Assembly: GCF_012044895.1 (NCBI RefSeq)
Contig: NZ_CP050695.1
Location: 3,068,501-3,132,500, forward strand
Direction: 5' to 3'
Length of the DNA stretch: 64,000 nucleotides
Origin: Aquisalimonas sp. 2447
GTDB lineage: Bacteria > Pseudomonadota > Gammaproteobacteria > Nitrococcales > Aquisalimonadaceae
Positions 46,683-50,013 of the stretch are shown piece by piece (position 1 is the first letter of the stretch; each line of letters starts with the position of its first letter). Position numbers and translations under genes: made by a program. The notes below the pieces were generated by a model. The model was given only the letters and a program-made list of their open reading frames with translations. It did not search any database and was not told the DNA's origin.

Positions 46683-46810
46683 GTCAAGGAGCGGTGGTGG
46701 GGAGTTCGTGCGAGCGACTTGCGCAGCGCCGGAGCGCAGGGTAGGAAGCGCCAGCTTCCGTAAGCGAAGCGTGCGGAGCCTGCACGAACTCCCCACCCCC
46801 GCTCCTTGAC
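46683..46810. repeat. Palindromic element (zinc ribbon-metY spacer, element 2)
   Basis: Arms 46683-46711 and 46782-46810 match over 28 of 29 bases. An inner hairpin GGAAGC-GCCA-GCTTCC lies at 46744-46759. The right arm ends 36 bp from the metY stop codon, so a metY transcript reading through would carry this structure in its 3' end. No T-run follows on either strand. Confidence 0.8.
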
Positions 46811-48244: not shown

Positions 48245-49240
48245 ATGCAGTTCCCGCTACCGGAGGAGCATGAGACTGAAGCCGGCGAACCGCGCCGGCT
48301 CGGCGTGGAGCTCGAGTTCGCGGGCCTCGACCTGCACACCATCTCGGCGAAAGTCGCGGCACTCTACGGTGGCACCGTAGTAGCGGACAGCCGCTTTGCG
48401 CACCGGGTCACCGGCACCCCGTGGGGCACGTTCAAGGCGGAGATCGACACTGCTCTGCTCAAGGACGGGGGCTACCTGGAGTTGCTGGAGAGCGTGGGGT
48501 TCAATGTGCGCGAAGCGCTCTACAGGGAGCGCATGGATGACCTGCTGGCCAGGGTGGCCGGTACCGTGGTTCCCCACGAGGTGGTCACACCACCCGTTCC
48601 CTTCGCGGACGCCCACCGCCTGGAAGAACTCCGCGCCGCATTGCAGGCGGAACAAGCCCAGGGCACACGGGTATCCCTGGTGTACGCCTTCGGGCTGCAC
48701 CTCAATCCGGAGGCCGCATCCCTGCAGCCGGATGCCCTGGCCCGGATTCTGCGGGCATTTTTCCTGCTCTACGACTGGCTGCACGTTGAAGGCGAGATCG
48801 ACTGGAGCCGGCGCGTCACCCCCTACATCAACGACTTCCCGCGCCCCTATCGCACCCTGGTGCTGAACCCGGACTACGCCCCGGATGAAGACCGCCTCGT
48901 CGACGACTACCTGCTCCATAACCCGACCCGGAACCGGGTTCTGGACATGCTGCCCATCCTCACCTACCTCGCTGGTGACCGGGCGCTGCGGGGCGTACCG
49001 GAAGCGCATCTGGTGAGCCCGCGGCCGGCGTTCCATTACCGGCTTCCGAACTGCCGCGTGGACGAACCGGAGTGGACCCTCGCCAGGGAATGGCAGGGAT
49101 GGGTGTGGGTGGAGTGGCTGGCAGCCCGCCCCGAGCGGATGCGGCCCATGGCCGAGGCGTACCTGAGTCGCCGGCCGCCGAGTCTTGCCCGTATCGATCA
49201 GGAATGGGCCGTGCAGACGCGGAGCTGGCTGCGGGCATGA
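48245..49240 (+). CDS. Putative amidoligase enzyme (Amidoligase_2 family)
   Basis: A 331-residue protein of the glutamine-synthetase-like COOH-NH2 ligase superfamily, predicted to form an amide bond using ATP. The N-terminal LGVELEFAGLDL (19-30) and FKAEIDTALL (about 63-72) supply the acidic metal ligands; HLNPEAASLQ and RRVTPYINDFPRPYRTLV are further family features. No signal peptide. Substrates are unknown. It overlaps the next gene by ATGA; that gene is a class I amidotransferase-like hydrolase, a pairing noted in comparative genomics (Iyer and colleagues' amidoligase survey). The ATG at 48245 was chosen because the frame further upstream is antisense to metY. Confidence 0.88.
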   Translation: MQFPLPEEHETEAGEPRRLGVELEFAGLDLHTISAKVAALYGGTVVADSRFAHRVTGTPWGTFKAEIDTALLKDGGYLELLESVGFNVREALYRERMDDLLARVAGTVVPHEVVTPPVPFADAHRLEELRAALQAEQAQGTRVSLVYAFGLHLNPEAASLQPDALARILRAFFLLYDWLHVEGEIDWSRRVTPYINDFPRPYRTLVLNPDYAPDEDRLVDDYLLHNPTRNRVLDMLPILTYLAGDRALRGVPEAHLVSPRPAFHYRLPNCRVDEPEWTLAREWQGWVWVEWLAARPERMRPMAEAYLSRRPPSLARIDQEWAVQTRSWLRA

Positions 49241-50013
49241 AACCGGTCATCGGCGTCACCGGGCCCAACCGGGGCGGCAGCGCGGCATGGCTGTGTGCGC
49301 GATTCGCCGTCTGGTGGGCCGGCGGACGGCCCGTGCACATCACCCCCGCCCGTCCACTCACCGCCGAGGCCCTGGACGGACTGATCATCGGCGGCGGCGC
49401 CGACGTTGCCCCCGAGTTATACGGCGAGGAACCGGCAACACCCAGCATGCGCTCCCTGCGGCGCAGCAGCCGCACTCTGCCGCGGTTCCTGGCCACGCTG
49501 CTCCTGTTCCCGCTGCTGTGGGTCCTGCGGCGGCTGCTCAGCACCAAGCGCTCCATGGGCGGCGATATCGACCGCGACGCTCTGGAGCAGCAACTCCTGC
49601 ACACGGCCCTGGAGCGGGGGCTACCCGTGCTCGGGATCTGCCGTGGGGCACAGCTGCTCAACGTGGTCTGTGGCGGCACTCTGCACCAGGACCTGAGCGC
49701 CTTCTACGCCGAAGCGCCGAACCTGTGGACCATCTGGCCGCAAAAGTCGGTCCGCATTACGCCCGACAGCCGCCTCGCCACGGCACTGAACCGGACGTAC
49801 TGCCACGTCAACTCGTTGCATCGGCAGGCCATCCGCACCCCGGCCGCCAACCTCCAGGCGGTCGCCCACGAGGACAACGGCGTGGTTCAGGCCATCGAAG
49901 ACCCGCGCGCCGCCTGCATCATCGGCGTACAGTGGCACCCCGAGTATCTGCCGCAGAAGCGCGAGCAACGCGCGCTGTTCCGCTACCTGGTCACTACCGC
50001 AGGCGCTGCCTGA
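49237..50013 (+). CDS. Class I glutamine amidotransferase-like gamma-glutamyl hydrolase (peptidase C26)
   Basis: A 258-residue PuuD-like protein. The triad is visible as Cys135 (LGICRGAQLLN), His234 and Glu236 (GVQWHPEYLP); the oxyanion GGGADVAPELYGE motif is at 52-64. Residues about 81-101 form an unusual hydrophobic, arginine-flanked insert (RFLATLLLFPLLWVLRR) that could be a membrane-contacting helix. Coupled to the amidoligase (ATGA), it may hydrolyse, edit or supply ammonia for that enzyme's gamma-glutamyl product. This is inference; the substrate is unknown. Confidence 0.88.
   Translation: MKPVIGVTGPNRGGSAAWLCARFAVWWAGGRPVHITPARPLTAEALDGLIIGGGADVAPELYGEEPATPSMRSLRRSSRTLPRFLATLLLFPLLWVLRRLLSTKRSMGGDIDRDALEQQLLHTALERGLPVLGICRGAQLLNVVCGGTLHQDLSAFYAEAPNLWTIWPQKSVRITPDSRLATALNRTYCHVNSLHRQAIRTPAANLQAVAHEDNGVVQAIEDPRAACIIGVQWHPEYLPQKREQRALFRYLVTTAGAA

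Follow-up and report, generated by a model that had tools for sequence, protein, structure and literature searches.

A conserved amidoligase and C26 hydrolase gene pair from Aquisalimonas that may make and cut a gamma-glutamyl amide

We analysed a 64,000-nucleotide stretch of DNA from Aquisalimonas sp. 2447 (genome of 3.97 Mb), the whole of which is called the window here. Two genes on its forward strand overlap. The first (48245..49240; coding sequence 48245-49237, stop codon 49238-49240) encodes an Amidoligase_2 protein of 331 aa, a predicted carboxylate-amine ligase of the glutamine synthetase (GS) fold, as assigned by Pfam, by a structure model compared with VIA-align and by alignments. 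The second (49237..50013; coding sequence 49237-50010, stop codon 50011-50013) encodes a Peptidase_C26 protein of 258 aa with a class I glutamine amidotransferase (GAT) fold, as assigned by Pfam, by PDB searches with both sequence and fold, and by alignment. The stop of the ligase gene and the start of the C26 gene share an ATGA overlap on the forward strand (49237..49240), which suggests that the two genes may be translationally coupled. A third feature, a predicted hydrophobic, Arg-rich helix at residues 81-102 of the C26 protein, is encoded at 49477..49542 on the same strand. The closest named relative, among the best 80 of 202 loci found, is an Aquisalimonas MAG whose ligase is 92% identical. 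An inverted repeat was also seen in the window at 46683-46810, past the metY 3' end, with two 29-base arms that are 97% complementary and lie 70 bases apart.

The ligase matched PF12224 with 204.9 bits (cut-off 22) over positions 1-245 of the 245 in the profile; up to E 1, no other Pfam family and no NCBIfam family matched it, and neither the single protein nor a profile found a convincing solved relative in the PDB by sequence. We then turned to its structure model (pLDDT 88.7, pTM 0.87). VIA-align matched the model to glutamine synthetase with Z 12.4 and rmsd 3.5 over 216 aligned residues at 12% identity, and GmaS and a 1-naphthylamine GS, both makers of gamma-glutamyl amides, were also among the matches. 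Foldseek ranked glutamine synthetase, YbdK and plant glutamate-cysteine ligase at the top, all of them weak matches (E 0.02 and above). On the model, the window ligase is predicted to be a glutamine-synthetase-fold enzyme. The sequence-only reading would have been undermined by loss of the acidic ligands of the amidoligase; instead, Glu22, Glu24, Asp68 and Glu112, as well as His264 and Arg266, were identical in 115/115 ligase sequences, and Glu66 was kept in 113/115. These conserved acidic residues would suit the binding of metal and ATP. A working alignment of 62 ligases (A2) was made from the window and 61 of the 80 named loci.

The C26 protein matched PF07722 with 151.5 bits (cut-off 20.5). 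In an alignment of 60 C26 sequences (A1: the window and 59 of 78 partners detected in L044-L123), Cys135, the nucleophile, His234 and Glu236 were invariant, and the triad was complete in 106/107 non-identical partners, the remaining one ending at a contig edge. Pfam, the sequence and the alignment thus bear out the earlier description of overlapping Amidoligase_2 and Peptidase_C26 genes with an intact triad. The triad cannot separate gamma-glutamyl hydrolases from GATs. The structure model (pLDDT 88.0, pTM 0.83) found its best matches in Lin1909, E. coli PuuD and SpuA, each with E 7e-15 or lower, while GMP synthetase and other ammonia-delivering GATs ranked weaker, from E 4e-11 upward. PuuD is a gamma-Glu-GABA hydrolase, and one of the SpuA entries is a trapped glutamyl-thioester. 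The same three proteins were recovered when a profile of the C26 set was searched against the PDB (cut-off 1e-20). Beyond the triad, R113, D114, N192 and H195 were invariant in A1 and Q197 was kept in at least 90%; the RD pair and the N-x-x-H-x-Q motif were present in all five PDB sequences aligned (Lin1909, PuuD and SpuA), of which Lin1909 alone shared Glu117 of A1. The window protein did not reach the PuuD equivalog of NCBIfam (NF008471; 67.4 bits, cut-off 266).

The search covered 59 genomes, among them that of the window; 22 carried the ligase, and each of these had a C26 match directly downstream on the same strand, that of G016 being in two pieces. The pairing therefore exceeds chance, and the absence of co-conservation in relatives, which would have counted against the sequence-only reading, was not seen. 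An even draw of 369 Gammaproteobacteria gave PF12224 in 20 genomes (21 matches), 18 of the 21 with C26; none of 14 control genomes carried PF12224. Among 194 genomes of the class of locus L122 there were 13 PF12224 matches, five with C26, three with a GGACT protein (below) and five with neither in the stretches examined. Pooling gave 116 loci with the ligase, 109 of them with C26 directly downstream; two of the 116 carried a ligase identical to another, and after their removal the count was 107 of 114. The two genes overlapped or had a gap of zero in 76 of the 107 non-identical pairs, with an exact 4-base overlap in 30; a script set the starts of the relatives' genes, which makes small gaps approximate. 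With 80 named loci taken as the best of the 202 found, the set is biased to close relatives, and since neighbouring C26, VTT and GGACT genes were identified from their similarity to a few queries, unlike partners can be missed. Judged by this arrangement, the ligase and C26 genes are a genuine two-gene unit, a compact one whose loci carry the labels of at least five phyla. Four non-identical loci (L127-L129 and L146) carried the ligase but neither C26 nor this GGACT. Both partners were also missing, in the stretches examined, from eight loci with divergent copies of PF12224 (L130, L147, L155-L157, L163, L164 and, once more, L146), which means that members of the ligase family can act on their own. 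L130 and L155-L157 make up a subgroup of divergent Amidoligase_2 proteins with no C26 in the stretch examined, in a neighbourhood that by eye looks mobile or phage-tail-like.

The helix at residues 81-102 of the window C26 was predicted with moderate confidence. Region 70-105 was filled in 77 of the 109 C26 partners and absent in 32. In 60 of the 78 insert-bearing proteins, the window's included, the insert held the 19-residue stretch of highest hydrophobicity; it reached 1.6 on the Kyte-Doolittle scale in 40/78 and stayed below 1.6 in 38/78, and Lys and Arg made up 18.7% of it, vs 12.2% elsewhere. On the ligase tree (92 of 117 sequences, with 25 near-copies removed beforehand), the insert-bearing pairs formed one clade with support 99/95, which suggests that the ligase and hydrolase genes have moved as a pair. 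A C26 tree of 51 of the 109 partners and two plasmid proteins, with most insert columns left out, gave the insert group weak support (75/77; recovered as a single group in 76% of bootstrap trees). Labels within the insert clade were Pseudomonadota, Thermodesulfobacteriota, Balneolota, Myxococcota and Verrucomicrobiota; one further protein was identical in contigs labelled Thermomicrobiota and Planctomycetota, for which misbinning is likely. The ligases of L093 (Thermomicrobiales label) and L094 (Phycisphaerae label) were separated by zero branch length, probably a misbinned contig. A helix that borders on transmembrane hydrophobicity within a soluble fold suggests contact with a membrane or lipid. 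Of the earlier proposal that the insert may put the reaction at the membrane, the insert itself proved real, clade-defining and mostly the most hydrophobic stretch, while the membrane contact is a prediction from its sequence.

We next considered neighbouring genes, using 89 of 100 loci after 11 repeats of the same contigs had been removed. A search for a third partner, also proposed in the sequence-only reading, brought up a VTT gene, a YqaA/DedA-type membrane gene, which among the neighbours listed was the only one to recur tightly, in insert-less pairs: it lay directly after C26 (less than 200 bases away, same strand) in 10/31 non-identical insert-less pairs, vs 0/76 insert-bearing ones. 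Loci of this kind include L116, L108, L101, L117 and L131, and Pfam confirmed the VTT domain in the members scanned. Three insert-less loci (L115, L133 and L134) had a VTT gene about 2.2 kb downstream, L142 had a partial one, and insert-bearing L064 had one just upstream. The adjacent state needs eight changes on the ligase tree, so the VTT association is not general. The statement that no partner genes lie nearby is thus true for the window, but VTT or GGACT genes adjoin the pair in some relatives. Neither an aldehyde dehydrogenase cluster (8/89 loci) nor an MsrA cluster (11/89) qualified as a conserved third gene, as distance or strand varied or few lineages were involved. An MsrA-like gene on the opposite strand lay beyond the unit in L119, L122 and Thioalkalivibrio loci (L065), two unrelated lineages, which may be chance. 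Among the neighbour clusters listed for the 89 loci, no oxidase or dehydrogenase was consistently adjacent to the pair, and no lipid or wall gene recurred next to it. A defence system and a phage origin were considered and set aside: PADLOC gave no match, tblastn of the window ligase against 50,697 phage records gave none at E 0.01, and a viral-contig scan matched four stretches by pattern, none of which was confirmed.

Either member of the pair was found with a different companion. L119 and L122 carried no C26; the next gene, which overlapped the ligase gene, encoded a protein of 153 residues that has a hydrophobic helix at its N-terminus and a domain of GGACT, the gamma-glutamylamine cyclotransferase family. 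The domain matches in L119 and L122 had E 6e-12 and 7e-12, and a gene of the same kind beside the ligase in L160 brought the overall range for the three loci to 7e-12 to 1e-13. These three loci formed one clade (100/100) within the insert-less group of the ligase tree; its sister was L162, with C26, and the next branch was L121, where C26 is accompanied by a divergently oriented upstream gene for a related GGACT with a hydrophobic N-terminus. L162 and L121 branch next to the GGACT clade in the order expected if GGACT was gained first and C26 lost later. The bacterial C26 thus appears to have been replaced by GGACT through an intermediate carrying both, in one clade and probably in a single event. 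A close relative of this GGACT occurred in 1/369 Gammaproteobacteria (E up to 1e-8), in a genome that is among the 20 with PF12224 and where it lies far from the pair, and in 3/194 genomes of the class of L122 (E up to 1e-6), these being L119, L122 and L160 themselves. Since close relatives come from one lineage, save L121 and that gammaproteobacterial genome, the statistics on GGACT are thin. Three further genomes, one of them that of the window, had weak GGACT matches at other sites (E 2e-6 to 3e-4), which look like ordinary family members. The replacing GGACT carries a predicted membrane anchor (two proteins computed), and its positive N-terminus suggests that the catalytic part lies outside, which mismatches a cytosolic C26.

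The ligase can also be exchanged. On plasmids of Phenylobacterium zucineum and Xanthobacter autotrophicus, an ATP-grasp gene is followed directly by a C26 gene of the same type (pairs at L168:3650-5750 and L167:3539-5720). The plasmid C26 proteins found their best matches within this C26 group at 38-45% identity. Between the two plasmids, the ATP-grasp proteins share 45% identity across 405 residues, and the ATP-grasp Pfam match was obtained for the Phenylobacterium protein only. On these two plasmids an ATP-grasp enzyme takes the place of the ligase.

We propose, with a probability of about 0.6, that the pair is a two-enzyme unit that makes and cuts a gamma-glutamyl amide. In an ATP-dependent step, the GS-fold ligase would activate a carboxylate, for which the gamma-carboxyl of glutamate is the likeliest candidate, and then join it to an amine; the fold suggests an acyl-phosphate route followed by attack of the amine. 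Cys135 of C26 would attack the gamma-glutamyl bond, so that glutamate and the amine are released. The overlapping genes would hold both enzymes at a fixed ratio, and the insert would probably set cleavage at the inner membrane face or cover a greasy substrate. The comparisons show how the genes are arranged, their families, predicted folds and conserved catalytic residues, their co-conservation and the exchange of either partner for an unrelated enzyme; from these we infer ATP use, the bond, the direction of the steps, the ratio and the membrane contact. The unit could serve storage, detoxification, salvage or envelope modification. We name a gamma-glutamyl amide chiefly because C26 and GGACT, unrelated cleavers of such amides, alternate in one slot: the PuuD/SpuA-type C26 enzymes and GGACT both target this bond, the former by hydrolysis and the latter by cyclisation. 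The GGACT exchange and its intermediate narrow the likely chemistry to gamma-glutamyl amides, a question testable with two purified proteins. The intact, co-conserved pair likewise lends support to the earlier suggestion that a ligase and a hydrolase add and remove glutamyl groups. Several points count against the make-and-cut proposal: C26/GAT enzymes also use glutamine, so a supply of ammonia is possible; the GGACT loci are one clade, with the topology mismatch described above; and there are ligases without either partner.

That C26 could be a glutamine amidotransferase feeding ammonia to a ligase that forms a primary amide, in the manner of MurT/GatD, is a reading we consider unlikely. It draws on the class I GAT fold and triad of C26, on a gene overlap that would suit a complex, and on the Gram-positive ligase and GAT pairs (MurT/GatD) that amidate peptidoglycan according to the accessible parts of that literature. 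However, the hydrolases PuuD and SpuA are closer to C26 than the ammonia-delivering GATs, ligases without C26 occur, and in three loci the C26 slot is filled by a GGACT cyclotransferase, which to our knowledge is not a glutaminase.

A role in envelope modification, compatible with a make-and-cut unit, seems rather doubtful. Here the pair would modify and unmodify a membrane-bound amine, with VTT/DedA-type proteins moving the lipid. The hydrophobic, Arg-rich insert in 77/109 C26 partners points in this direction, as do the VTT gene directly after C26 in 10/31 insert-less pairs and upstream in insert-bearing L064, and the predicted membrane anchor of the replacing GGACT. DedA proteins have been proposed as flippases of undecaprenyl phosphate and phosphatidylethanolamine in the accessible part of PMC11474028, and phage amidoligase/GGCT/GAT cassettes are predicted to alter peptidoglycan in that of PMC5498523. 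Yet no lipid or wall gene was recurrent next to the pair among the neighbour clusters listed, 38/78 inserts stayed below 1.6, 21/31 insert-less pairs lacked a directly adjacent VTT gene, and the search with the window protein did not find the phage amidoligases. A specific form of this role is more speculative again: a cycle at the membrane that gamma-glutamylates an amine of the envelope, either an aminolipid or a lipid-linked wall precursor. In it the ligase would cap the amine at the inner face, a VTT/DedA-type protein would move the lipid once capped, and the cap would be removed by C26 bound to the membrane or by an anchored, outward-facing GGACT. If true, this would represent a novel type of envelope modification. 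A role in methionine or sulfur metabolism, raised earlier as a sulfur or homocysteine link from the divergent metY, is highly improbable, as metY upstream on the opposite strand (8/89 loci) and metH downstream (10/89) were found in loci of one order only, other lineages keep the pair with different neighbours, and ordinary local synteny suffices.

We finally compared the pair with known systems. No characterised orthologue of the ligase, which would have spoken against novelty, was found in Pfam, NCBIfam, the PDB or the literature searched; no functional study of the pair was among the literature matches listed, most subscription journals being outside the search; and the accessible parts of the phage, membrane-vesicle, Rlo-protease, CDC123, GATD3A and planctomycete-phage literature gave no function for it. 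The gamma-glutamyl polyamine pathways of PuuA/PuuD and of the Spu type resemble the window pair in combining a GS-fold ligase with a C26 gamma-glutamyl-amine hydrolase. Unlike PuuA/PuuD, window-type pairs have no oxidase or dehydrogenase consistently beside them among the neighbour clusters listed, the window C26 scores 67.4 bits against the PuuD cut-off of 266, and the window ligase matches PF12224 only.

MurT/GatD is likewise a two-gene unit of a ligase and a class I GAT-fold partner; MurT resembles Mur ligases in the accessible part of its literature, whereas the window ligase is predicted to be of the GS fold, matches PF12224 only and is not of the Mur-ligase type. A podovirus cassette (LUZ24, RIO-1, PSA-HP1 and others) has an amidoligase beside a GAT, several with GGCT, and is predicted to change peptidoglycan in the accessible text of PMC5498523; phage amidoligase/GGCT/GAT/ATP-grasp cassettes are described as peptidoglycan modification in the parts seen of PMC5498523 and PMC11945000. 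In phage UFV-P2 the amidoligase is PF12224, as in the window, but its GAT is class II, according to the accessible part of PMC3890496, and the window ligase had no tblastn match among phages at E 0.01.

The term 'undescribed system', used in the sequence-only reading, was too strong. The Amidoligase_2 family and its neighbourhoods were reportedly predicted by Iyer et al. in 2009, and the Pfam text of PF12224, said to be based on that work, mentions neighbouring GAT-like thiol peptidases for proteobacteria and, for fungi, a cyclotransferase of the AIG2-like kind. As far as could be seen, the kind of pair is already known and is uncharacterised in the literature searched. For this ligase family, PF12224, which those neighbourhoods share with the window, the present analysis describes features for which we found no earlier description, in a search that left most subscription journals outside: a C26 clade defined by its insert, a bacterial hand-over from C26 to GGACT with its intermediate, a VTT gene as a third member, and ATP-grasp/C26 pairs.
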